Source of the DNA: Oceaniferula marina
GTDB taxonomy: Bacteria; Verrucomicrobiota; Verrucomicrobiia; Verrucomicrobiales; Akkermansiaceae
Direction of reading: 5' to 3'
Assembly: GCF_013391475.1 (NCBI RefSeq)
Contig: NZ_JACBAZ010000001.1
Location: forward strand, 62,001 to 126,000
DNA: 64,000 nt
A program made the translations under genes and the position numbers. Of this stretch, positions 42,971 to 55,351 are shown in pieces. Position 1 is the stretch's first letter. Each line of letters begins with the position of its first letter. A model generated the notes under the pieces. It made no database searches, had not been told where the DNA came from, and saw only the letters and a program-made list of their open reading frames with translations.

Positions 42971-43021
42971 GGTGGGAAAGAGTGATTGGAAAATACAGAA
43001 TCGGATAAGGCCTGGCTGGAC

Positions 43022-44458
43022 TTATTGTTGAGGAAGGAATTGAAGGATGATTTGCGGGTAAATGCCCACGATGAGTAGCACGGCGCCCAGCATGTAGGAT
43101 GGGATTTTACCGCAGAGGCTGAGGTCACTGGCATCTTCGGTGGATTTGACCAGTGGGCCTTGGAAGCAGTCGCGGTAGGCTCGTAGAACATAGACGGCGG
43201 AGATGACCACCCCCCAGAGGGCGATGATGGTGGTTATCTGGACCAGCCCCAGAGGTTCTCCTGCCTTCCAGCTGGCAAAGCCGGCGAGGAAGACCATGAT
43301 TTCGCCTGCAAAGTTGGCCAGGCCTGGCAGTCCGATGGATGCCATCCCGGCGAGACCGAAGATGAATGCCAGTGCCGGAGCCTTTTTGGCAAGTCCTCCA
43401 AGTTGATTGATTTCGAGGGTCCCGGTTTTTTCTTCGACCACGGAACTCAATGAGAACAGGAGAGCGATGGAGATACCGTGGGCAAACATCAGCAGCACAG
43501 CCGCGGGTTCGGCGATCTGGTTGCTAGGATCGGCAGCCAGTGCTGCGATGGCGAGGAAGATATAGCCCATGTGCATCACCGAGGAATTACCGAACATCAG
43601 GTCGAGTCGTTTCTGGTTGATGGTAACCAAGCCTACCCAGATGATGTTGCCCAGCAGTAGTGAGCAGAGCAGTGGCAACCAGTGGGCCATGCCATCGGGG
43701 GCGACATTCATGCCCACGACCAGCAGTCCGTAGAGACCGAATTTTTTAAGCACTCCGGCATGCAGCATGGAGACTGGAGCCGGGGCACTGGCGTATGCCG
43801 GAGCAGCCCATGAGTGCAGAGGGAAGAGGGAGATCAGCGTGCCAAAGCCAATAATAAGAAGTAGGGCGATGGTCTTCTGGGCCTCGAGTGGAACTTTGGC
43901 GTTAGCGAGGTCGGCCATGGCGAAGCTACCGGCGTGGTAGGTGGCCAGCAGGAGACCGGCGAGTAAAACAATCGATCCAAACGCGAGGTAGATGGTGATT
44001 TTCCAGGCAACTTGTTTACGCTCTCCCCGACCGAGGATGCCGATCATCAGAAAGGTGGGGATCAGTGCGAGTTCGTGGAAGGCATAGAAGAAAAAGACGT
44101 CGGTGGAGAGGAAGGCTCCGATGCATCCGGCAGCGATGAACAGGGTGCTTGAAAACCAAAGTTTTTCACGACCTTCCGGGCATTTGCCGGAATACACGGC
44201 GGCCAGGGTGATCAACACGCTGAGAAGCAGCATCACGGCCGAAGCTCCACTGCTGTGAAATCCGAGGCTGAGGTTGATTTCAGGATCTGCAAGAACCTGG
44301 AATCCGGTGTTCCAGTTTGGACTGGACGCATTCATCAGGGGGAAGGATGCCAGCACGATGTTGCCGAGGGCCGCCGCCAAGGCGGTCTTGCGGGCTGGAG
44401 CACCGCAAAGAATGGCGATGGCTGCGAGCAGTGGTAGAAGAATGAGAGTAAAGAGCAT
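43022..44458 (-). CDS. nuoM: NADH-quinone oxidoreductase subunit M
   Basis: 478 residues from ATG 44458. Features: FFYAFHELALIPTFLMIGILGRGERK (proton-path Glu), GTLISLFPLHSWAAPAYASAPAPVSMLHAGVLKKFGLYGL, and NSSVMHMGYIFLAIAAL. It is one of the three antiporter-like proton-pumping subunits of complex I. The spacer before it (towards nuoL) carries a degenerate copy of the two short repeats described separately. Confidence 0.96.
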   Translation of the reverse strand: MLFTLILLPLLAAIAILCGAPARKTALAAALGNIVLASFPLMNASSPNWNTGFQVLADPEINLSLGFHSSGASAVMLLLSVLITLAAVYSGKCPEGREKLWFSSTLFIAAGCIGAFLSTDVFFFYAFHELALIPTFLMIGILGRGERKQVAWKITIYLAFGSIVLLAGLLLATYHAGSFAMADLANAKVPLEAQKTIALLLIIGFGTLISLFPLHSWAAPAYASAPAPVSMLHAGVLKKFGLYGLLVVGMNVAPDGMAHWLPLLCSLLLGNIIWVGLVTINQKRLDLMFGNSSVMHMGYIFLAIAALAADPSNQIAEPAAVLLMFAHGISIALLFSLSSVVEEKTGTLEINQLGGLAKKAPALAFIFGLAGMASIGLPGLANFAGEIMVFLAGFASWKAGEPLGLVQITTIIALWGVVISAVYVLRAYRDCFQGPLVKSTEDASDLSLCGKIPSYMLGAVLLIVGIYPQIILQFLPQQ

Positions 44459-44470
44459 GGTTGTTTTCTA

Positions 44471-44588
44471 TTGAGGCCTGCGGCGCAGACTGGATGAACA
44501 AGATTGTCTTTGGACGATTTACAGGGTTTTGTTTGAGGTGTTGGCGTGAGTTGATGATTCTTGAATCTTCTTGTCTTGTATCTCTTTA
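44471..44588. repeat. nuoL-nuoM spacer with two short interspersed repeats (degenerate)
   Basis: 44471-44527 carries a diverged copy of the GCCTGCGGCGCAGAC-type repeat with two further GGAT/AGATT blocks. 44555-44588 carries TTCTTGAATCTTCTTGTCTTG, the second repeat, which runs into the nuoL stop codon. The same order is seen in two other nuo spacers. Confidence 0.75.
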
Positions 44589-46418
44589 GGCAAAAACAGT
44601 GAAGTAAATGACGAGTAGAACACCTACAGCCATGAGAGCCGCATAGTGGCTCAGACTTCCGTCCTGAATGTAACGACGGAAGAAATTGCCAGTTCCCGCA
44701 GCACAGCGTGAGAGGCCGCCGACAATCAGGCCGTCGATCACAAACTCATCGATGAAGTGAATGATCATGGCAACGCAGTCCTGAGCCACCTTGACCACGG
44801 TCGAGTAGATTTCGTCCAGATAGAATTTATTCTCGAATAGCGGAATGTGGATGGGGTCCTTGTCCTTGCCGAAATAGAGGACATAGGCGGCACCCGCACC
44901 GAGGATGAGGGCGATCAATGAGCAGATGAGCTCGATGCCGACGCTTGGAAGGTAGTGCAGAGGCATGTTCCATTCAGGAGCGACCGGGAAAATCTTGACG
45001 ATGAAGGGGGAAACCAGAGCCATCAGTCCGAGCAGCATGAGAGGTAAGGTCATGATCAGCGGAGCTTCTTTGGCTTCTTCCGCTCCGTGGGCTCGAGGCT
45101 TTCCGAGGAAGGCGATGAAGAAGAGTCGGAGCATGTAGAAGGTAGTCAGGGCTGCGACGCCAACGGCGATCAAGAAGAAAATCATTTTATCGGCCACTAC
45201 AGCAGCGTGGAGAATGCCTTCCTTGGAGTAGAATCCGGAAGTGAAGGGCACGGCGGTCAGAGCTGCGGTTCCGATGAGGAAAGTCATGCCGGTGATGGGC
45301 ATTTTTTTCCACAGACCTCCCATTTTCCAGATGTCTTGTTCGTGATGGCAGGCGTAGATCACGGCTCCGGATCCAAGGAAGAGAAGCGCCTTGAACCAAG
45401 CGTGGGTGAAGAGGTGGAACATTCCGGATTCAGGTGCCAGCAAGCCGACAGCCATGACCATGTAGCCGAGCTGCGACAGGGTGGAGTAAGCCAGGATCTT
45501 TTTGATGTCGTTTTGCTGGGTGGCCATTAAGGCGGCGAGCAGAGCGGTGAGGCCTCCCACCCAGGCGATGGTGTTGGCACTCCAGACAGGGACGATATCC
45601 GTGAGGGCCATGCCCTCGGGGGTGATGGAGAGGAAGAGTCGGGCCATCATGTAGACACCGGCAGCCACCATGGTGGCTGCGTGGATCAAGGCGGATACCG
45701 GAGTAGGGCCTTCCATCGCGTCCGGCAACCAGACGTGGAGCGGAAGCTGGGCGGATTTACCAATCGCTCCGCAGAAGATCAGCAGGATGATGCTGCCGAC
45801 GAGGCACGGGTCACCCAGAGCGGTCAGTTTAGATCCATCCATCTCAGGCGATGAAAAAACGAGTGTTCCCATGACACCCCAGAGCATCAGGATACCGATC
45901 ATGAAGCCGAAGTCGCCAATCCGGTTGGTGAGAAAGGCTTTTTTAGCGGCATCTGCAGCACTGTCTTTCTGATACCAATGACCGATCAAGAGATAAGAAC
46001 TCAAGCCAACCAGCTCCCAGAAGATGAACATCATGATGAAGTTGGATGCCAGAACGATACCGGTCATCGAAAACATGAAGATGGAAAGGCCTGAAAAGTA
46101 GCGGGCTTTGGCTTCATCATCCTTCATATAACCAAGCGAGAAAATGTGTACCAGCATACCGATGCCAGTGACCACGATCATCATCCCGGTGGAGAGTTGG
46201 TCGAGTTGGAAGCCGATATCAAAGGTGTAGTTGCCCACTGTGATCCAGGGGATCGTGTCACCAGCGGTTCCTCCCAGAAGGTTGAGGGAGAAGATAAAGG
46301 TGAGGATGACGGATGCCGTCGAGAGGTAAGCCGAGGCATCGGCCTTGCGTTTCAGCCCGAGCTGAATAATCGCGGCGCTAGCCAAAGGGAGGATGAAAAG
46401 TAACCAGGTTGGATTCAT
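44586..46418 (-). CDS. nuoL: NADH-quinone oxidoreductase subunit L
   Basis: 610 residues from ATG 46418. Features: FIFWELVGLSSYLLIGHWY, GKSAQLPLHVWLPDAMEGPTPVSALIHAATMVAAGVYMM, and YSTLSQLGYMVMAVG. It also has the long lateral C-terminal helix region and last transmembrane segment typical of NuoL. It is the most distal proton-pumping subunit of the membrane arm. It is separated from nuoK by a 160-bp MITE-like element. Confidence 0.96.
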   Translation of the reverse strand: MNPTWLLFILPLASAAIIQLGLKRKADASAYLSTASVILTFIFSLNLLGGTAGDTIPWITVGNYTFDIGFQLDQLSTGMMIVVTGIGMLVHIFSLGYMKDDEAKARYFSGLSIFMFSMTGIVLASNFIMMFIFWELVGLSSYLLIGHWYQKDSAADAAKKAFLTNRIGDFGFMIGILMLWGVMGTLVFSSPEMDGSKLTALGDPCLVGSIILLIFCGAIGKSAQLPLHVWLPDAMEGPTPVSALIHAATMVAAGVYMMARLFLSITPEGMALTDIVPVWSANTIAWVGGLTALLAALMATQQNDIKKILAYSTLSQLGYMVMAVGLLAPESGMFHLFTHAWFKALLFLGSGAVIYACHHEQDIWKMGGLWKKMPITGMTFLIGTAALTAVPFTSGFYSKEGILHAAVVADKMIFFLIAVGVAALTTFYMLRLFFIAFLGKPRAHGAEEAKEAPLIMTLPLMLLGLMALVSPFIVKIFPVAPEWNMPLHYLPSVGIELICSLIALILGAGAAYVLYFGKDKDPIHIPLFENKFYLDEIYSTVVKVAQDCVAMIIHFIDEFVIDGLIVGGLSRCAAGTGNFFRRYIQDGSLSHYAALMAVGVLLVIYFTVFA

Positions 46419-46447
46419 TTTTCGATAGAATTATTATGGAGAGAGTT

Positions 46448-46607
46448 TTGGAGTGCGGTGGCTTGACACCGCTATTGGCAGTGTCGCACTCATGAGTAGT
46501 GCGGATGAGGAAGTCTTGTTGCCTTGGTTTTAGGCGGGGGGATGAGATTGGTGGATGAAGAGTTGATTGGTAGCAATGGAAAGCGGTGTCGAGCCACCGC
46601 ACTCCAA
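46448..46607. mobile_element. MITE-like element between nuoK and nuoL
   Basis: A 160-bp sequence bounded by 26-bp terminal inverted repeats (46448-46473 and 46582-46607), identical except at one position. The ends begin TTGGAGTGCGGTGGCT. Inside, CGCACT-CATG-AGTAGTGCG forms a second hairpin. It carries no gene and starts 6 bp beyond the nuoK stop. No target duplication is obvious. The form is that of a non-autonomous palindromic element; a transposase in trans is assumed. Confidence 0.75.
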
Positions 46608-46613
46608 GTCTGT

Positions 46614-46937
46614 TTATCCCTTGAGCGTTGTAAGTTGATCGGTGTTGATCGTTTGTCTGGCTCGGTAGAGGGAGACGATGATGGCGAGCCCCAGGGCCAC
46701 TTCGGCTGCAGCCACGGTGATGACAAAAAAGACGAGCATTTGGCCGTCGTAGTCGGGGAGCCCTTTGACTGTATTGAAACGGGAAAAGGCAACCAGTGTG
46801 AGCGAAGCAGCAGCAAGCATCATTTCGAGGCACATAAAGATGACGATGATGTTGCGCCGGATGATGACTCCGCCAAGGCCGATGGCGAAGAGGAGGCCGG
46901 AGAAAAACAGATATTCGTTAAGCGTAGGAGTGGGCAT
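46614..46937 (-). CDS. nuoK: NADH-quinone oxidoreductase subunit K
   Basis: 107 residues from ATG 46937; three membrane helices. Typical Nuo[42 protein letters not shown] with the conserved membrane Glu in CLEMML and a second Glu in [13 protein letters not shown]. It forms part of the proton channel at the base of the membrane arm of complex I. Confidence 0.95.
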
Positions 46938-46993
46938 AGGGTTATCCGTTATGAATGAATAATGAGGATAGGTTCGGCTCGGGTGTGCCGAGG

Positions 46994-47563
46994 TTAATCA
47001 GAGGATTTGTTGGATGTTTTTTTCGAAAGGGTAACGCAACCAACCGTCGCAGAGAGGAGGAGAACGGCAATCACCTGAAGCGGGAAATTGTAGTCCTTGT
47101 AGAGTTTTTGTCCGATCAGATGCACATCGGGCAGGCGCTCTGTTTTGAGTTTTTTGTGAATGATACTTTCTTCGGGGTAATCATCGACCGTTTCGGTGAA
47201 ATTGAGTTCGGGGGCGGTGGGGGACGTTTGCTCGGTCATGAGAACTCCAGCCAGTTGAAGCATGAAGACCGACGGAAGAAGGATACCGATAAAAAGAACC
47301 AAGCCATTGTGGTGGATTTTTTCCTCCTTTTTCAGATCGAGCAGCATGATGATGAAAATAAACAAAACCATGATGGCTCCTGCATAAACCAGGATTTGCA
47401 GAATCCCGACGAGATACGCGTTCAGTCCGGTGAAAATACCGGCAAGGCCCAGAAAACTAAGCACCATTGCCAAGGCACTCGATACCGGGTTGCGCAGGAG
47501 CACAACCATCAGACCGCCGGCAATCATCATCGCGGCGAAAATATAGAAAATTGGTGAGATCAT
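46994..47563 (-). CDS. nuoJ: NADH-quinone oxidoreductase subunit J
   Basis: 189 residues from ATG 47563. Five membrane helices with the NuoJ pattern: [50 protein letters not shown] soluble loop of about 40 residues precedes the final helix, which is followed by a basic tail. It lies between nuoI and nuoK; the nuoI-nuoJ spacer contains the composite repeat. Confidence 0.94.
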
Positions 47564-47585
47564 CGTATGGGAAGTGGAAGGTGGA

Positions 47586-47684
47586 ATGCCTGCGGGGCAG
47601 ACAGGATTAACATGATTTTATGAGATTTACGGGAAGTTTCAGTGGAGAGTGCTTGGATCTTCTATCTTGAGTTCTTCTATCTTA
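47586..47684. repeat. nuoI-nuoJ spacer with composite short repeats
   Basis: Next to the nuoJ start lies ATGCCTGCGGGGCAGACAGG plus ATTAACATGATTTTATGAG (47586-47633). Next to nuoI lies CTTGGATCTTCTATCTTG, partly duplicated (47652-47684), and its last bases are the nuoI stop codon. Confidence 0.8.
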
Positions 47685-48248
47685 CTTGAGCTCATTCCAC
47701 TTGTTGACAAGGCCTTCGCGAACGCCTCCGATTTCGTAGAGTTTCTCTTTGTCGTGAACCATCTCTTTGCGGTCGAGCCCGATGACGAGGTAATCTTTGC
47801 GGAGGAAGATCGCTTGTTCCGGGCAGACTTCTTCGCACATGCCGCAGTAAATGCAGCGAGTCATATCGATATCGAATTCCTGAGGTCGTTTTTCGACTTT
47901 TGCCCATGGATCATCGGATTCGATTTCTCCCGGAGTGATGGCGATGGCTTTGGGTGGGCAGATGAATTCGCAGAGTTGGCAGGACACGCAACGCTCCCGT
48001 CCTTGTTCATCGGTCACCAGTGCCGGGGTTCCACGGTAGTATTCCGGAAGGTGGTCATCCCAGCGGGTTTCCGGATATTGCATGGTTACGCCGGTTCCCG
48101 AGCCGTTGAAATTTTCAGCTCCCGGAGTTTTTCCGCGCATCGAATTGATGGCGTGTTTCAGGGTGATGGCCAATCCCTTGAAAACTGCAGGCAGATAGAG
48201 TTTTTCCATCAGCGTGAGCTTGGGGCGGGTAAGTTTTTTAACTGGCAT
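47682..48248 (-). CDS. nuoI: NADH-quinone oxidoreductase subunit I
   Basis: 188 residues from ATG 48248. Two 4Fe-4S ferredoxin motifs: CVSCQLCEFICPPKAI and CIYCGMCEEVCPEQAI, which hold clusters N6a and N6b. The N-terminal helix with LPAVFKGLAITLKHAINSMRG anchors it to the membrane-arm interface. It relays electrons from NuoG to NuoB. Confidence 0.96.
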   Translation of the reverse strand: MPVKKLTRPKLTLMEKLYLPAVFKGLAITLKHAINSMRGKTPGAENFNGSGTGVTMQYPETRWDDHLPEYYRGTPALVTDEQGRERCVSCQLCEFICPPKAIAITPGEIESDDPWAKVEKRPQEFDIDMTRCIYCGMCEEVCPEQAIFLRKDYLVIGLDRKEMVHDKEKLYEIGGVREGLVNKWNELK

Positions 48249-48261
48249 TTTTATGGAAATT

Positions 48262-48367
48262 TGATGCCTGCGGCGCAGACAGGATTAACTGGATGTGTGA
48301 TGGCGATCAGGAGGGGAGTGGAAGTTTTTGATGTCTTGGATCTTCTATCTTGCAGTCTTGAATCTTA
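48262..48367. repeat. nuoH-nuoI spacer with composite short repeats
   Basis: 48262-48297 reads GATGCCTGCGGCGCAGACAGG plus ATTAACTGGATG. 48333-48367 reads GTCTTGGATCTTCTATCTTG plus a second CAGTCTTGAATCTTA that ends in the nuoH stop codon. Same order and strand as in the nuoI-nuoJ spacer. Confidence 0.82.
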
Positions 48368-49489
48368 GTTGCAAAGCATGATGATGCCAGCCGTGATGAA
48401 GATGTTAACCAGTGCCAATTCGAAGAAAACGATCCAGCCTAGTTTCATCAATTGGTCGTAACGGAAGCGGGGGACGGTCCAACGCACCCAGATGAAGAAA
48501 ATAATAAAGGCAATCACCTTCGCGAGGAAGATAAGGATGTGGATCAGTCCTCCCCATGCCAGTTCGTTGATCATGGCATCCAGTCCAAAGCCTGCCGACC
48601 AGCCACCGAAGAAGAGGGTGACAATCACTGCAGAACCAACAACCATGGCGGCATATTCACCGAGGAAAAACAGAGCGAATTTCATCGAAGAGTATTCCGT
48701 GTGGTATCCGCCGACGAGTTCGGTTTCGCATTCAGGAAGGTCAAAAGGCATACGATTGGTTTCGGCAAAGATGGAAGTGGTGAAGACCACAAAAGAGATG
48801 CCGAGCGGGATCAGCAGGAGCCAGCGCTCCATACTCAAGCCTTCACCCCAGAGGGGTAACAAGAGCCAACCGTTGTCGGCCTGTTGTTGCACGATATCAG
48901 AAAGGTTGAGCTGACCAAAGATCATCAGAACCGGAATGACTGAGAGACCGAGGGCAATTTCATAGGAAATCATCTGGGCGCACGAGCGGACACCTCCGAG
49001 GAAGGAGTATTTGTTGTTGGATGCCCAACCGGCGAAGGTGATGCCGTAAACACTGAGTGAAGCGATGGCAAAAACAAAGAGTGGGCCGGCATCGATGTCG
49101 GCAATGACAAGTTTGATTTCTTCTCCGAAGAGCGTGATGCTGCTGCCGAAGGGGATGATGCAGATGCAGAGGAATGCCGGGGCGGCGGTGAGTGCCGGAG
49201 CAATCCAGAAGAAAAACTTACGGACATGTGCCGGGACAAAGTCCTCTTTGAGGAAGGCCTTGAATCCGTCCGCCAGCGGTTGCAGCAGACCTGCGAGATG
49301 GATGTCCTTTTTTCCTCCGAATAAGGTGAGCGGGATACCCACACGGTTGGGGCCGACCCGGTCTTGGATAATCGAGGAAACCCGGCGTTCAGCATACGTG
49401 GAATAGGCAATGATCGGCAGGGTGCAGACAAAGGTGAACACAACAATCTTCACTGCTGTGCTGAGGATGAGGATAAGAAGAGGATCCAT
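48365..49489 (-). CDS. nuoH: NADH-quinone oxidoreductase subunit H
   Basis: 374 residues from ATG 49489. Eight or so helices with the quinone-pocket loops intact: YAERRVSSIIQDRVGPNRVG, GLLQPLADGFKAFLKEDFVP, FAETNRMPFDLPECETELVGGYHTEYSSMKFALFFLGEY, and WVRWTVPRFRYDQLMKLGW. It links the quinone site to the proton pumps. The 5' neighbour, normally nuoG, is separated by the GxxExxY unit. Confidence 0.96.
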   Translation of the reverse strand: MDPLLILILSTAVKIVVFTFVCTLPIIAYSTYAERRVSSIIQDRVGPNRVGIPLTLFGGKKDIHLAGLLQPLADGFKAFLKEDFVPAHVRKFFFWIAPALTAAPAFLCICIIPFGSSITLFGEEIKLVIADIDAGPLFVFAIASLSVYGITFAGWASNNKYSFLGGVRSCAQMISYEIALGLSVIPVLMIFGQLNLSDIVQQQADNGWLLLPLWGEGLSMERWLLLIPLGISFVVFTTSIFAETNRMPFDLPECETELVGGYHTEYSSMKFALFFLGEYAAMVVGSAVIVTLFFGGWSAGFGLDAMINELAWGGLIHILIFLAKVIAFIIFFIWVRWTVPRFRYDQLMKLGWIVFFELALVNIFITAGIIMLCN

Positions 49490-49502
49490 GGGTAGTGGAA
49501 TT

Positions 49503-50021
49503 GATGCCTGCGGCGCAGACAGGATTTCAAGAGGATTAAGGATTTACAGGATGATCGGGTGAGCGTTGATGTAATCTGACAGCTTGAGAAGGGGGCTTTT
49601 TGTAAGTCTTGTATTTTCTTTTAATTTGAAGGCTAGGGGCTCCAAAGTTGAGTAAGAGACCTAAATCGATATCAGTGGCTTTAAGATAGTTAACAACTTG
49701 GGTTTCGTGTATCGGTAACAGGTTTTCGATAGCTTTGAGTTCAAGGATGAGATGGTCGGATATCTTGAAGTCTGCCTTGAATTCACCGATGATTTTGTTG
49801 TCGTAGAGAACATCGATTTTGGCTTCTCGAGTGTATGTGATTTTTGTTTTTTCTAATTCATGGGCTAATGCGTTAGCGTAGACACTCTCCAGAAACCCGG
49901 CACCAAGCGCTCTATGAACTTTCATAGCGCATCCAATGATGGTTTCAGTGGTTTTGTCTTCCATGCAATTTTTATCTCATTTGTTTGAAAATCTTGTAAT
50001 CCTGTCAGCGCCGCAGGCATC
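49503..50021. mobile_element. Repeat-bracketed GxxExxY unit inserted between nuoG and nuoH
   Basis: A 519-bp unit with 30-bp inverted ends: 49503-49532 and, reversed, 49992-50021, matching at 28 of 30 positions and starting GATGCCTGCGGCGC. It fills the spacer almost exactly: its right end is 2 bp beyond the nuoG stop and its left end is 13 bp before the nuoH start. It holds one gene of the GxxExxY family, whose last codons (encoding HPVNP) lie in the repeated ATCCTGTAAATCCT tract next to the left end. Single-ended copies of the same repeat lie in at least three other nuo spacers. Mobility is inferred. Confidence 0.65.
49536..49964 (-). CDS. GxxExxY family protein (PD-(D/E)XK nuclease-like)
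   Basis: 142 residues from ATG 49964. The naming motif is present as GFLESVY (residues 23-29 region), followed by VLYDNKIIGEFKADFKISDHLILELKAIENLLPIHETQVVNYLKAT. D...ELK and the later Glu/His/Gln positions fit the PD-(D/E)XK superfamily, as proposed for this family (PF13366). The catalytic activity is not established. The C-terminal tail QRSPDHPVNP is encoded by repeat sequence. It splits the nuo operon but is on the same strand, so it can be co-transcribed. It has no functional tie to complex I. Confidence 0.88.
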   Translation of the reverse strand: MEDKTTETIIGCAMKVHRALGAGFLESVYANALAHELEKTKITYTREAKIDVLYDNKIIGEFKADFKISDHLILELKAIENLLPIHETQVVNYLKATDIDLGLLLNFGAPSLQIKRKYKTYKKPPSQAVRLHQRSPDHPVNP

Positions 50022-50023
50022 GT

Positions 50024-51775
50024 TTAACCGACGATCTCACCGTTGGCGCGGCGTTGGTTTTCGCGTTCGACCAAGGGGATGGTGACGCCTGTTTCAGTGA
50101 TGACCTGACCGAGGTCGGGGATGCTGGCAAGTTTGATTTCTTGGAATTCATCCACCGTGTTGGCCAGAGTTTCAAAGACGGCGTCGATGCTGCCAGGTCC
50201 CTCATGCGGGGCATCTCCACTCAGGGCGAGAATGAGGTCGGTAATGATTTCCCAATCACTGCGTGCGTCTCCGGGAGGGACACAGGCTGCGTTGAGTTTT
50301 TGTAAGCGTCCGGTGACGTTGACCATGCTTCCTCGTTTTTCGGCGGGGGCGGCACCGGGAAGAACCATGTCGGCCGCCTGGGCGGTGGCACTTGTTTGGT
50401 GATCGATGACAATCAGCAACTCCAGTGCCCGAAGGTCGTCTTCGGTGAAGCTGGCCGCTTCAAGTAGATCTTCGCTGGCAACGACGAGGGCTTTGGTTTT
50501 TCCGTCGCGGATGTTGCCGAGAATGTGACACAGACTCGCTCCCGGATCGTCACTCGCAAGGACGAGTTTGGCTCCGGTCGTGTTGGGATTGCGATCGGAA
50601 GAAATCAGCATATCGTCGGATTCTTGCAAGCGGCTGACGATGCCGATTTGCTCGGTTTCCAATTCCGCGGCGAGAGTGCGCATCATCAGGAGCTCTTCGT
50701 TGGTCTGGCGACCTGAGGCGATGACGGCAATTTCACTTGGGTCAAATTGCTTGAGGGCGTCGGCGGCTCCACGGATGCTTTGATTCCAGCAGGTTTCCTC
50801 GTGAATGCCATCGGCCTTGATCAGCGGGGCCGTGAGTCGGGTTTCATCGGTCGGGCAAGAATAGGAAAGGCGGTGGCTGTCCGGCATCCAGCATGAGTTG
50901 ACATCATCGTTTTGGCGCGGGGTGATACGGAAGATTTTGTTGCCGCGGGTCCAGATGGAAATATTGGTTCCGGTTCCACAATGGGTGTCGATGCTAGGAG
51001 TCTCCTTGAGGAACCAAGTGCGCATCTTGAATCGGAAGTCGTTACTGGTCAGGGCTCCGACGGGGCAGAGATCGACGGTGTTGAGTCCGTAGTTATTGCT
51101 GAGTTCGCGGCCTGGATAGACGCCTACGGTCGTGTGGGTTCCCCGGTCAGAGAATCCGAGCACGGGCTCGTGCGCCACTTCGTCCATAAAGCGGATGCAG
51201 CGGGAGCACATGATGCAGCGCTCGTCGTCGAGGGTGATGCGTGGGCCGATCTTGACGTTTTTCGGCTTTTTCACCTTGTCCTCTTTGAATCGTGACTCGC
51301 CTTGTCCATGTTCAACGGAAAACTCCTGGAGACGACATTCGCCAGCTTTATCGCAGATCGGGCAGTCGAGCGGGTGGTTGATCAGGAGAAACTCAAGGAC
51401 GTTCTCTCTGGATTTTTTGATCGCATCGGTATTGGTGCGGATCCCCATATTTTCGGCCACGGTGTTGGCGCAGGCGATGACCGGGCGGGGCATCCATGAA
51501 ATTTCCTGGTAGCCGTCGTCTTGATAGGCAGGGTCGGCTCCCGGGGCGGGCCTTGGGGGCATGCCCATCTGGACCATACACATCCGGCAGTTGCCCGGAG
51601 ACGACAATTTGGGATGGTAGCAGTAGTGGGGGACTTCTTTTTCCGCTATTTTGCATGCCTCGATCATCCGGGTGCCGCGAGGCACCTGGATCCAGTGGCC
51701 ATCAATTTGGACGTTGACCATGCCCTTTTCAGCGGCGATGTCTTTGGGGCGGGGAGATGTTTCTGTGGAGCTCAT
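50024..51775 (-). CDS. nuoG: NADH-quinone oxidoreductase subunit G
   Basis: 583 residues from ATG 51775. N-terminal 2Fe-2S ligands C52, C63, C66 and a later Cys (about 102); the His-Cys 4Fe-4S site HPLDCPICDKAGEC (H134, C138, C141, C147); a second 4Fe-4S site CIMCSRC...C237. The 35 residues between C66 and C102 are longer than usual. The molybdopterin-like domain is short, so the total is below the 700-900 residues of many NuoG proteins, and the N7 cluster ligands are not visible. It carries electrons from NuoF to NuoI. Confidence 0.95.
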   Translation of the reverse strand: MSSTETSPRPKDIAAEKGMVNVQIDGHWIQVPRGTRMIEACKIAEKEVPHYCYHPKLSSPGNCRMCMVQMGMPPRPAPGADPAYQDDGYQEISWMPRPVIACANTVAENMGIRTNTDAIKKSRENVLEFLLINHPLDCPICDKAGECRLQEFSVEHGQGESRFKEDKVKKPKNVKIGPRITLDDERCIMCSRCIRFMDEVAHEPVLGFSDRGTHTTVGVYPGRELSNNYGLNTVDLCPVGALTSNDFRFKMRTWFLKETPSIDTHCGTGTNISIWTRGNKIFRITPRQNDDVNSCWMPDSHRLSYSCPTDETRLTAPLIKADGIHEETCWNQSIRGAADALKQFDPSEIAVIASGRQTNEELLMMRTLAAELETEQIGIVSRLQESDDMLISSDRNPNTTGAKLVLASDDPGASLCHILGNIRDGKTKALVVASEDLLEAASFTEDDLRALELLIVIDHQTSATAQAADMVLPGAAPAEKRGSMVNVTGRLQKLNAACVPPGDARSDWEIITDLILALSGDAPHEGPGSIDAVFETLANTVDEFQEIKLASIPDLGQVITETGVTIPLVERENQRRANGEIVG

Positions 51776-51784
51776 TTTGTGATG

Positions 51785-51807
51785 GGTCTTATAGGTCCTA
51801 TAGAACT
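51785..51807. repeat. Imperfect palindrome in the nuoF-nuoG spacer
   Basis: GTCTTATAGGTCCTATAGA contains TATAGG-T-CCTATA, an inverted repeat in a 35-bp spacer. It is unlike the other spacer repeats and may be a short remnant of a further repeat family. Confidence 0.35.
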
Positions 51808-51810
51808 CAT

Positions 51811-53205
51811 TTATTGGCTGATGTATTTCATCTGCTGCTTGGCTTCAGCGGAGATGAATTCGTTGTCTTCGGAGGTTTCCGACGTCAGTTCATCGCGGAA
51901 CTTGTCGATGATGGCTTCGACTGGCCAGGATGAGGCTTCACCAAAGGCGCAGACGGTTTTGCCGTCGATTTGGTAGGCGACCTCTTCGAGGGTGGTGATG
52001 TCTTCCGGGGTGGCCTGGCCGTTGGCAATGCGGTCGGAGATCTTTTTCATCCAGCCGTTTCCTTCGCGGCATGGGGTGCATTGGCCGCAGGATTCATGGG
52101 CGTAGAAGTGGTTCAGGTTGTTGAGCACCCAGGACATTTTACGGGAGTCGTCCATGACGATGACTCCTCCGGATCCTGCCATGGAGCCACAAGCGGCGAT
52201 GGTGTCGAAATCCATCGGGATATCAAAGAAGCCGAGTTCTTTTTTATCTTCCCCCTGGCCGATGCTGTAGCTGTCGTCACAGCGCATGATCTTGGCTGAT
52301 GACCCGCCGGGAATCACGGCCTTGAAGCTGCGCCCCTCCTTGGGGCCGCCGCAGACGTCATTGAGCAGTTCGCCCATGGTGATTTTTCCAACTTCTACTT
52401 CGTAGTAGCCTGGTTTTTGAACATCGCCGGAGACACAGAGGATGCGGGTGCCTGTGTTGCGGGCGACTCCGAGTTTGGCGTATTCCTCACCACCCATCCG
52501 GATGATGTGTTTGACATGGCAGAGGGATTCAACGTTGTTGACGATGGTCGGGGCCATGTAAAGGCCGAGAGCTGCCGGGAAATAGGGTGGTTTGATTCGT
52601 GGGTAGGGGCGTTTGCCTTCCAGCGATTCGATCAAGCCGGTTTCCTCACCACAAATGTAAGCTCCTGCTCCACGGTGAACGTAGATTTCGAGATTGAAGC
52701 CTGATCCGAGGATGTTTTCTCCGACAAAATGCTTTGCTTTGGCCTCGGCGATGGCTTGTTCCATGATCTGAGCTCCCTCGGGAAACTCTTCCCGCATGTA
52801 GATATAGGCGGTGTGGGCTCCAACCGCAAAGGCGGAAATAACCATGCCTTCGATCAGTTGGTGCGGGTCCTGGTGGACAATGTAACGGTCCTTGAATGTT
52901 CCTGGCTCGGACTCGTCACAGTTACAGATGAGATAGACTGGCTTGGTGTTGTTGGGTGGGATGAACCCCCACTTGATACCGGTGGGGAAGCCGGCTCCAC
53001 CTCGGCCGCGGAGGCCTGAGGTCTTGACTTCATTGGTGATGGCTTGAGGTTCCATGCCGAGCGCCTGCTTCAGCTGATCATAACCGCCATCCTTGAGGTA
53101 GCAATCAATGGACGTATCCCAACCGGAGCGGTCGACATTTTTGAAGATGAGTCGGTGCTCGCAGGGGTGAGGCTCTTTGCCCGGAATGTAGGTGATTTCA
53201 CTCAT
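51811..53205 (-). CDS. nuoF: NADH-quinone oxidoreductase subunit F
   Basis: 464 residues from ATG 53205. NADH/FMN site LRGRGGAGFPTGIKWGF and LICNCDESEPGTFKDR; GAGAYICGEETGLIESLEG; and 4Fe-4S ligands ESCGQCTPCREG plus a later Cys. It oxidises NADH and holds FMN and cluster N3. 12 bp downstream of nuoE and 35 bp upstream of nuoG. Confidence 0.97.
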   Translation of the reverse strand: MSEITYIPGKEPHPCEHRLIFKNVDRSGWDTSIDCYLKDGGYDQLKQALGMEPQAITNEVKTSGLRGRGGAGFPTGIKWGFIPPNNTKPVYLICNCDESEPGTFKDRYIVHQDPHQLIEGMVISAFAVGAHTAYIYMREEFPEGAQIMEQAIAEAKAKHFVGENILGSGFNLEIYVHRGAGAYICGEETGLIESLEGKRPYPRIKPPYFPAALGLYMAPTIVNNVESLCHVKHIIRMGGEEYAKLGVARNTGTRILCVSGDVQKPGYYEVEVGKITMGELLNDVCGGPKEGRSFKAVIPGGSSAKIMRCDDSYSIGQGEDKKELGFFDIPMDFDTIAACGSMAGSGGVIVMDDSRKMSWVLNNLNHFYAHESCGQCTPCREGNGWMKKISDRIANGQATPEDITTLEEVAYQIDGKTVCAFGEASSWPVEAIIDKFRDELTSETSEDNEFISAEAKQQMKYISQ

Positions 53206-53217
53206 GTTGAAAGTGGT

Positions 53218-53748
53218 TTAGCCTTTGTATTGATTGAGGAGAGCTTCGGCCTTTTCAGGGGCGACAGCTTCGTGGAAGTCATCATTGACCAGGCAGACCG
53301 GCCCGGTTCCGCAGGACGCGAGGCACTCGGCATATTCGACCGACCACTGCCCACAGGGGGAAACGGCGACCGGGTTGTGGTGAGAGTCTGAGTTGGAGCG
53401 GTCGATGCCGGTCAGTTCACAAATGCGCTCCATGAGTTCGGCGGACCCGGCCATGGCGCAGGAGAGGGTGCGGCAAATACGGAAGTGATACTTTCCGGGC
53501 GCGCTTTCACGGAAGCCGGGGTAGAAGGAGACCACTTCAAATACCTGCATCGGTTCAAGTCCCAGTTTGCCAGCGATCCACTCAGTGGCCTCTTTGTTGA
53601 TAAAACCAAACTGATGTTGGATGATATGCAGCAGGGGGAGAACCGCTGAACGTTTTTTGTCGTCCGGATACTGGGCAATACGTTTGTCAGCCTCCGCATC
53701 GATCTCAGCAGTAATTACAAAGGGCGGAAAAGTGGATGTGGTTTCCAT
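53218..53748 (-). CDS. nuoE: NADH-quinone oxidoreductase subunit E
   Basis: 176 residues from ATG 53748. Thioredoxin-like 2Fe-2S protein with the ligands in ICRTLSCAMAG and AECLASCGTGPVCLVNDDF, the usual C-x4-C and C-x3-C spacing. Between them lies an unusually long insertion (TGIDRSNSDSHHNPVAVSPCGQWSVE), which contains an extra Cys. It carries cluster N1a beside NuoF. The start of the gene follows the nuoD-nuoE spacer, which contains a degenerate repeat. Confidence 0.94.
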   Translation of the reverse strand: METTSTFPPFVITAEIDAEADKRIAQYPDDKKRSAVLPLLHIIQHQFGFINKEATEWIAGKLGLEPMQVFEVVSFYPGFRESAPGKYHFRICRTLSCAMAGSAELMERICELTGIDRSNSDSHHNPVAVSPCGQWSVEYAECLASCGTGPVCLVNDDFHEAVAPEKAEALLNQYKG

Positions 53749-53763
53749 TTCTAGGATGTTTTT

Positions 53764-53810
53764 TGCCTGCTGAGCAGACAGGGTTGACAGGTTTCTGTAA
53801 GATTTCCTGA
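53764..53810. repeat. Degenerate copy of the GCCTGC-type repeat in the nuoD-nuoE spacer
   Basis: TGCCTGCTGAGCAGACAGGG then TTGACAGGTTTCTGTAAG; the central hairpin CTGCTGAGCAG is kept. It is positioned just upstream of the nuoE start, as the other copies are for nuoI, nuoJ and nuoM. Confidence 0.6.
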
Positions 53811-53858
53811 TGATTCAGGGGGAGTGGGTCTTGATCTTTTTTTGCGGTCTGGTTTCTG

Positions 53859-55139
53859 CTACCTGTCACATTCGCCGAGCACGAAGTCGAGAGAGCCGAG
53901 GATGGCCGGGACATCGGAGACCATGTGTCCTGGGATCATGTGGTCGAGGATGGACAAACTGACAAAGGATGGGGAGCGGATTTTCATGCGGTGGGGGACA
54001 CCGCCTCCTTTGGAATGAATATAAAATCCAAGTTCTCCCTTCGGGTTTTCAGCGCCGAAGTAGACTTCACCGGCCGGGGCTTCAATCCCCTGGGTTGCGA
54101 TGATAAAGTGGTGAATGAGCTCCTCCATGTTGGTCAGCACCTTGTCTTTTGCCGGGAGCATGTTCTTGCTGTCTGCGACGTTCACCGGGCCTTCGGGCAT
54201 GTCGGCAATGATTTGGCGCAAAATGCGGATGGACTGGCGCATTTCTTCCATACGGACGAGATAGCGGTCGTAGGAGTCTCCGTTTTCACCGATTGGCACA
54301 TCAAAGTCATACTGGTCGTATCCGAGGTAGGGGCTGTCTTTGCGGAGGTCGCGGGCGACTCCCGACCCTCTCAGGTTGGGGCCCGTCAGGCCCCAGGAAA
54401 TGGCATCCTCTTTGGCGATGGTTCCGATATCGCACATCCGGATCATGTAGATCTTATTGCGGTCGAGTAATTGGGAAATCTCATCGATTGATTTTTCGCA
54501 CTCGTCACAGAACTTGGCGAGGTTGTTGAGGAATCCGTCGGGGAGATCCCGGATTTGGCCGCCAACACGGGTATAAGAGGTGGTGAATCGCGCGCCGGTG
54601 AGTTGTTCGCAAAGGTTGTGGGTTTTTTCTCTTTCCGTGTAGCTATAGAGGAAAACCGTCATCGCTCCAACGTCCATAGCGCAGACCCCAACGCCGAGCA
54701 TGTGCGAGGAGATACGGGCAAGTTCGCAGCAAATGACCCGGATGGCCTCGCCACGGGGGGGGAGTTTCCAGCCCATGAGTTTTTCCACCGCACAGGTGTA
54801 AGCCACGTTGTTGGCGAGTGGCGCCAGGTAGTCCAATCGGTCGGTGTAGGGGACAAACTGGTTGTAGTGCATGTTTTCGGCGATTTTTTCGTCGCCCCGG
54901 TGCAGGAACCCGATATCGGGTTGGCACTTGGTGACTTTTTCGCCATCGAGTTCGAGGATGAGACGCAGCACTCCGTGGGTTGCAGGGTGCGAAGGCCCCA
55001 TGTTGAGCACCATTTTTTCACCGAGGATGTCCTGGGTTTCCGCCTGGTAATCGTCTTGGGTGGATTGCTGCTGGGCAGCGTCGAGCCCTGCCTGCGTTTT
55101 GGCAGCGGTGTCGGGGACTTGGTATTCCTGCGAATTCAT
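53859..55139 (-). CDS. nuoD: NADH-quinone oxidoreductase subunit D
   Basis: 426 residues from ATG 55139. 49-kDa subunit signatures: MVLNMGPSHPATHGVLRLILELDGEKV, GFLHRGDEKIAENMHYNQFVPYTDRLDYLAPLANN, and the end LDFVLGECDR. A roughly 40-residue N-terminal tail rich in Gln and Asp precedes the core. It holds part of the quinone-binding site. It is the first gene of the nuo cluster here: nuoA, nuoB and nuoC are not upstream. No ribosome site is visible. Confidence 0.96.
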   Translation of the reverse strand: MNSQEYQVPDTAAKTQAGLDAAQQQSTQDDYQAETQDILGEKMVLNMGPSHPATHGVLRLILELDGEKVTKCQPDIGFLHRGDEKIAENMHYNQFVPYTDRLDYLAPLANNVAYTCAVEKLMGWKLPPRGEAIRVICCELARISSHMLGVGVCAMDVGAMTVFLYSYTEREKTHNLCEQLTGARFTTSYTRVGGQIRDLPDGFLNNLAKFCDECEKSIDEISQLLDRNKIYMIRMCDIGTIAKEDAISWGLTGPNLRGSGVARDLRKDSPYLGYDQYDFDVPIGENGDSYDRYLVRMEEMRQSIRILRQIIADMPEGPVNVADSKNMLPAKDKVLTNMEELIHHFIIATQGIEAPAGEVYFGAENPKGELGFYIHSKGGGVPHRMKIRSPSFVSLSILDHMIPGHMVSDVPAILGSLDFVLGECDR

Positions 55140-55351
55140 GAGATTGAGACGAGGAAAAGGAGGGCCAAAACCGCCTCATAAGCAAGTCATTTGTTAAGCT
55201 TTTTTGTAAGAATCGGAGCCTTCTAGACGTGCATCGAGAGGTGGTCGTGACAGATGGGTGAAAAATAATTCCACAATAGTTAAAAAACTTTCAAAATGGG
55301 GGTTGCAATTTTCTTCGGTCTCTGCTTTTTTGCGCGCGTCTCCAACAATGT

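Follow-up and report, generated by a model that had tools for sequence, protein, structure and literature searches.

GxxExxY nuclease-like genes and their inverted word arrays as a probable repeat-dispersal system resembling REPIN/RAYT

What is a gene of the GxxExxY family, common in bacteria and without agreed function, doing between two genes of a nuo operon, enclosed by inverted copies of a repeat that recurs in the same operon? In the window, by which we mean the whole 64,000-nt stretch of Oceaniferula marina DNA analysed here, a 519-bp unit occupies positions 49503-50021 and consists of two 30-nt inverted arms (49503-49532 and 49992-50021; 28/30 or 93% complementary, with 459 nt between them) around a gene for a 142-aa GxxExxY protein. 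The edges of the unit lie 2 bp past nuoG and 13 bp short of nuoH, it reads in the same direction as the operon, and the final codons of the gene (DHPVNP) are encoded by repeat sequence. The nuo gene names of this operon are putative assignments. The features are as follows:

49536..49964, minus strand: GxxExxY gene (TIGR04256 / PF13366 PDDEXK_3), 142 aa; from the ORF, profile matches, alignment and model
49992..50021, minus strand: 5' (gene-upstream) inverted arm, GATGCCTGCGGCGCTGACAGGATTACAAGA on the gene strand; inverted-repeat search
49503..49532, plus strand: 3' (gene-downstream) inverted arm, GATGCCTGCGGCGCAGACAGGATTTCAAGA on the plus strand; inverted-repeat search
49533..49556, plus strand: extra word array directly inside the 3' arm, GGATTAAGGATTTACAGGATGATC; contains the gene's last codons and stop
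44471..44504, plus strand: one-ended arm copy in the nuoL-nuoM spacer; repeat search
47583..47616, plus strand: one-ended arm copy in the nuoI-nuoJ spacer; repeat search
48261..48294, plus strand: one-ended arm copy in the nuoH-nuoI spacer; repeat search
53760..53793, plus strand: one-ended arm copy, more diverged, in the nuoD-nuoE spacer; repeat search
50024..51775, minus strand: nuoG, host gene upstream; ORF and similar genes in relatives
48365..49489, minus strand: nuoH, host gene downstream; ORF and NuoH matches in relatives

A preliminary description of this DNA, made from its letters alone, had reported the inverted ends, the last codons inside the repeat and copies of a single end in other nuo spacers; all of these were found again, the single-end copies being four in number (from 44471, 47583, 48261 and 53760). 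A search for known structured RNA gave no Rfam match at gathering score across 43000-55200. Two other repeats were observed in the operon. The nuoK-nuoL spacer holds a 26-nt inverted pair, GGAGTGCGGTGGCTTGACACCGCT (46448-46473 and 46582-46607), which is found at 13 sites of the genome against 0 for the reversed pattern and whose variants have stem bases altered on both sides, as expected for a REP-like hairpin. Additionally, in two nuo spacers the one-ended ACAGGAT copies have a second repeat, of the CTTCTATCTTG type, next to them (47652-47688 and 48335-48371).

Concerning the protein, the GxxExxY signature and the PD-(D/E)XK residues that had been read in the gene are borne out by profile searches, in which it matches TIGR04256 GxxExxY at 142.9 bits (cut-off 35) and PF13366 PDDEXK_3 at 135.1 bits (cut-off 22), the latter being the only Pfam family found at E up to 0.001. 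In an 18-sequence alignment E26, D65, E75, K77, Q89 and Y93 are invariant. The positions E26, D65, [ED]75 and K77 are complete in 51/52 genes with flanking arms as defined below, D replacing E75 in seven, and the catalytic positions are also complete in 16/18 genes without arms, so arm loss is not generally coupled to loss of the active site. As a separate observation, two related GxxExxY genes (L145 and L150) lack both the catalytic ExK and flanking arms and are possibly domesticated.

The AlphaFold model of the window protein has a mean pLDDT of 86.7. Its best fold match is 4ic1 (SSO0001), which we take to be a Cas4 (Foldseek E = 7.4e-4, the sole E under 0.001; VIA Z = 9.0 over 104 residues, rmsd 5.0), a match that supports the fold class and no more, given that VIA Z values under about 8 may reflect a common arrangement only. 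The Foldseek runners-up are LHK-Exo (4.5e-3) and lambda exonuclease (1.7e-2), the second VIA match is 3ijm, a restriction-endonuclease-like protein (Z = 8.2), and a sequence search for a solved homologue gave none at E up to 1. Residues, model and fold matches agree on the catalytic D...(D/E)xK and the core alpha-beta fold of the PD-(D/E)XK superfamily, and the invariant E, D, ExK and QxxxY positions presumably represent the RecB/Cas4-like nuclease motif. We therefore predict the GxxExxY protein to be a RecB/Cas4-like PD-(D/E)XK nuclease. It resembles RecB, Cas4 and lambda exonuclease in its best fold match and in those invariant positions, but these nucleases have about 200 aa against 142 aa here, the single cysteine of the window protein leaves no place for a Cas4-kind iron-sulfur cluster, and, unlike in any of the three, the gene is encoded within repeat ends. 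Two other identities were considered and rejected: for a defence gene, the best PADLOC match was AbiEii (E = 0.024), which was taken as noise, and for a phage gene, the best PHROGs E was 0.015, a phage collection gave no match and plasmid records gave 8.

Are such arms a general property of the family? Searching 58 related genomes led to 98 family matches in 37 genomes, with none in the other 21/58, and 92 of the 98 were examined (72 higher-scoring and 20 weaker; six were not fetched). Arms were defined as an inverted repeat with a score of at least 14, within 350 bp on both sides of the gene. They were present at 53/72 of the higher-scoring matches against 2/804 control segments, taken both at these loci and at nuo loci, and at 3/20 of the weaker matches, several of which lie in much longer reading frames, giving 56/92 overall. 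The second set came from a GTDB scan with the window's clade, from which the best 80 of 562 loci were taken, belonging to Verrucomicrobiota, Bacteroidota, Chloroflexota, Acidobacteriota, Planctomycetota and other groups. Among these best 80 of 562, arms were found in 52/75 loci with usable flanks (control 7/839), a count that omits 5/80 with short flanks and keeps four near-duplicates that look like loci already seen and reached by two routes; the ACAGGAT word itself is inverted on both sides in 34/75 (control 1/839). Most GxxExxY genes of the higher-scoring and second sets are thus flanked by inverted copies, while 19/72, 17/20 and 23/75 genes, respectively for the three samples, fall below the arm threshold. 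A chance origin of the arms is ruled out by the two controls and, in the window's own genome, by the reversed-pattern count given below.

The arms vary between genes, sharing a design rather than a sequence: a few copies of a short word, for example ACAGGATTA ACAGGATTA or CACGGAATA CACGGAACA. For 96 arms, the autocorrelation is highest at 9 bp (0.425, with 0.273 for shuffled arms), and it has shoulders at 8 and 10 bp and a further rise near 18. In 96 elements the best word pair points into the unit 80 times and outward 10 times, with 6 undecided. As a class the arms are not palindromes, the mean longest stem of 87 arms being 3.14 against 3.51 when shuffled, with a stem of at least 6 in 2/87; the window's 3' arm is an exception in its cap, CTGCG-G-CGCAG, a 5-bp palindrome. 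From outer arm to outer arm, the median unit length is 507 bp (87 elements).

In the window's own genome, the 20-mer end GCCTGCGGCGCAGACAGGAT occurs, with up to 3 mismatches, at 74 sites against 0 for the reversed pattern. Fifty-four of these sites form 27 inward pairs spaced 107-493 bp apart, none form outward pairs and 20 are unpaired. Only the window's pair, 1/27, has a GxxExxY gene inside, most copies thus being gene-less inward pairs, like REPINs. The same genome has two further GxxExxY genes elsewhere; the second gene, L002, has its own CACGGAA-type arms. In an alignment of 13 copies, judged by eye, 12 have longer outer ends in common, CAGGGC...GCCCTG, and resemble a single MITE roughly 180-210 bp in length, which suggests that another enzyme may have spread that MITE. 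A second interspersed element, some 220 bp long (ATACCAAGTAGTAAACAGACGGGACG... in one orientation), is inserted in two of these MITEs (L025 and L032). The shared outer ends of 12/13 copies speak for an explanation in which a transposase encoded elsewhere in the genome, Y1 (IS200/RAYT) or other, mobilises units with the arms as MITE-like ends, the GxxExxY gene being cargo. That the arms as a class are not hairpins (a stem of at least 6 in 2/87) speaks against it; its remaining evidence is taken up below with the word counts.

Comparison of relatives showed that the units are present in some genomes and missing from others at the same site. In 11/11 genus mates with a NuoH match and a junction that was read, nuoG and nuoH are separated by 24-54 bp with no unit between them; two further genus mates gave no NuoH match. 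The window's unit therefore either was inserted in this lineage or has been lost more than once. In a second case, an element common to G042 and G046 is absent in G049, where an array of a different word type occupies the site. In Bacteroides (80 genomes searched), an element sits in the 5' end of a gene in 3/7 junctions read, and in the four others the element is absent and the gene uninterrupted. This is the insertion polymorphism between relatives expected of a DNA transposon, and it may have arisen by gain or by loss. Purely vertical presence at one site is ruled out by the empty junctions at nuoG-nuoH, in G049 and in Bacteroides. The Bacteroides insertion has a 10-12 bp direct repeat on both sides, with a 49-bp new gene start parting the 3' arm from the downstream copy; owing to that distance of 49 bp we do not call it a target duplication. 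None was seen by eye at the window's unit, nor a clean one at the insertions read. Gene-less ACATAAGAACA pairs in Bacteroides have similar copies at different sites. At L294 and L297 (Bacteroides, G058), ACATAAGAACA inverted pairs lie inside CACAGAG inverted pairs, as nested insertions would look.

The empty sites also bear on a homing-type selfish nuclease, in which the protein would cut pre-existing word arrays and host repair would copy the gene unit in, the words themselves having spread otherwise. PD-(D/E)XK homing endonucleases exist, 3r3p being among the structural matches, and words are numerous where the gene is present. However, all three empty sites are without a cognate word array (the 11 genus mates; G049, with its other word type; the four Bacteroides junctions), as judged by eye and for a putative recognition site, and homing should multiply the gene, whereas the closest GxxExxY pairs within a genome have a median identity of 37% and a maximum of 78% (18 genomes; 70 aligned proteins). 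We consider this explanation improbable.

Concerning genomic position, the preliminary description had proposed that insertion between co-transcribed genes, in the operon's own orientation, may be what lets the unit persist. The orientation itself holds, 95/106 GxxExxY genes between co-directional neighbours reading the same way, but it is not special: ordinary genes of the same loci do so in 39/45 cases, nearly as often, so GxxExxY genes lie in operon-like places with no special rule (15/144 loci were without a usable neighbour in this count, and genes were taken from a simple ORF rule). GxxExxY genes occur in the nuo operons of four genomes, in three spacers (G000, nuoG-nuoH; G008, nuoF-nuoG; G043, nuoF-nuoG; G040, nuoD-nuoE). 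Recurrent targeting of nuo was considered for them and rejected, as the four nuo-borne genes together with L036, whose neighbours (read on L171) we take to be leuD-like and synthase-like genes, form one clade (SH-aLRT 96), which makes movement from an old nuo insertion equally likely as target choice. In the three genomes other than the window's own, these window-clade GxxExxY genes (L098, L102 and L103) thus lie in nuo spacers other than nuoG-nuoH.

Repeat and protein vary together. Arm similarity correlates with protein identity among elements with an arm score of at least 14, pairs under 70% identity only being used (Mantel r = 0.571 with all 96 elements, and 0.454 when restricted to the 50 from related genomes; in each case 0/5000 permutations reach the observed value). 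On the protein tree, twelve word labels assigned to 97 genes require 17 changes, against a minimum of 36 in 1000 shuffles, the test omitting 47/144 genes without a clear word on both sides; the tree was built from 121 columns with many forks open, leaves out L040 and L041, and had 6 near-duplicates dropped (1 + 5). Part of this correlation is common descent, the element being inherited whole. Words nevertheless stay alike at 45-70% protein identity, which points to a functional tie of word and protein. Such co-variation could also be produced by a domesticated host factor, a protein binding or cutting dispersed arrays for repair, mRNA processing or regulation, with the arms autoregulating its gene; the unamplified gene and its location between co-directional genes would also suit this. 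Against it stand the patchy presence at orthologous sites, the 21/58 related genomes without a match and the several word types that coexist in one genome, and we regard it as the least probable of the alternatives weighed.

The number of words follows the gene as well. The ten genomes that have an ACAGGAT-type gene contain 2, 2, 20, 22, 30, 31, 32, 49, 61 and 64 word pairs GACAGGATNNACAGGAT (up to 1 mismatch), counts that include a few words of the gene's own ends, gene types having been assigned from the arms; the 48 other genomes contain at most 15, with a median of 0 (p = 8.6e-7, for genomes that are not independent of each other by kinship). In the 35 genomes of at least 3.4 Mb, cognate and non-cognate counts do not overlap. 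The highest count without a cognate gene, 15, belongs to G049, in whose genus two other members hold the element whose site is empty in G049. The CACGGAA word behaves in the same direction but more weakly (p = 0.001), with two exceptional genomes that were not assigned that gene type and reach 58 and 50. Cross-tests of word counts against non-cognate gene types were not significant. The gene itself is not amplified while the repeats are multicopy, no pair of genes within a genome exceeding 78% identity against tens of word pairs.

These counts also return us to the cargo explanation with its Y1 or other transposase. Each of the ten genomes with an ACAGGAT-type gene has Y1 transposases, as do 49/58 genomes in all, and across the 58 there is a weak correlation between the numbers of words and of Y1 transposases (rho = 0.27, p = 0.04). 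However, the effect of the cognate gene stands when the model also takes in genome size and the number of Y1 transposases (t = 5.46), and the Y1 count adds nothing beside it (t = -0.48); the Y1 count is also without effect among the 48 genomes lacking the cognate gene (p = 0.44), and cargo need not have a repeat type that tracks its own protein tree. The cargo explanation is thus unlikely, while being the most credible of the three alternatives.

Our preferred reading, to which we give a chance of roughly two in three, is that GxxExxY genes together with the inverted word arrays on either side of them make up a system of repeat dispersal that works like REPIN/RAYT with an unrelated nuclease. 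It was chosen as the simplest account covering the co-variation, the word numbers, the inward pairs and the empty sites together; recognition, cutting and movement of the words by the GxxExxY protein are what we infer from them. The REP/RAYT-like mobile pair of the preliminary description is supported, the repeat type being tied to GxxExxY genes within and across genomes, and the analogy extends further than was claimed there, to gene-less inward pairs, an unamplified gene with amplified repeats and a repeat type that tracks protein type. Of the two outcomes named there as speaking against it, a repeat no commoner near GxxExxY genes than elsewhere and vertical descent alone at one site, neither was found.

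In the repeat-dispersal account, a small RecB/Cas4-like PD-(D/E)XK nuclease would recognise an array of two to four words of about 9 bp, and two such arrays, mostly inward-facing, would delimit a unit able to move. Units with the gene (median about 507 bp) would be autonomous, gene-less inward pairs would be non-autonomous, and single ends would be what remains of the latter. The nuclease may act on word arrays, perhaps single-stranded or hairpinned, and its action would cause the paired unit to be copied or inserted. New units would persist where they are least harmful, for example between co-directional genes, where the host operon would transcribe them.

As to known systems, REPINs are described as inverted repeat doublets dispersed through the genome, the RAYT gene being not amplified and lying beside its own repeats, with repeat diversity matched to protein diversity (PMC3116915). 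Inverted doublets are found here too, with 27 inward pairs and no outward pair at the 74 sites of the window's genome. The GxxExxY gene is likewise not amplified while its repeats are multicopy, two genomes (G023 and G040) having two genes each under one word label. However, the REP/RAYT enzyme is a Y1 (HUH) transposase and the protein here a PD-(D/E)XK one; the REP repeat is an imperfect palindrome, whereas direct arrays of about 9-bp words, not palindromic as a class, are found here; and the GxxExxY arms bound the gene closely as ends of a unit of about 500 bp, unlike in REPIN/RAYT. Since enzyme and repeat design both differ, the GxxExxY system is not a REPIN/RAYT member. MITEs and IS200/IS605-type elements are similar in their short gene-less units, inverted ends and many copies, but the ends of GxxExxY units are repeated words that vary with the nuclease lineage, and by the Pfam scan the gene inside the window's unit is not of a transposase family.

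To our knowledge, no class of element combines word-array ends with a PD-(D/E)XK nuclease as its only enzyme. The TIGR04256 and PF13366 descriptions give the protein motif and the nuclease superfamily, with no biological role and no repeats. The family name or an accession occurs in PMC9756366 and in other papers, and the passages of these other papers concern neither role nor repeats. A published description of the GxxExxY-repeat pairing was not found in a literature search that took in few subscription journals and no preprints.

In a broader form, which we hold as evenly balanced between true and false, GxxExxY proteins would be mobility or maintenance enzymes of an unrecognised bacterial repeat superfamily, made of inverted, protein-read arrays of about 9-bp words with an own word for each lineage. 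If true, this would be a class of mobile elements whose only driver is a PD-(D/E)XK nuclease, and it would offer a natural set of word specificities from which a recognition code might be read. A family present in many phyla would receive its first function, the origin of a class of short bacterial repeats would be explained, and a nuclease-only route would join the known ways in which repeats spread. Apart from this, the natural word-protein pairs allow the question of recognition to be tested directly, and a compact family of nucleases that appears to have many specificities would be of interest for studies of nuclease recognition.
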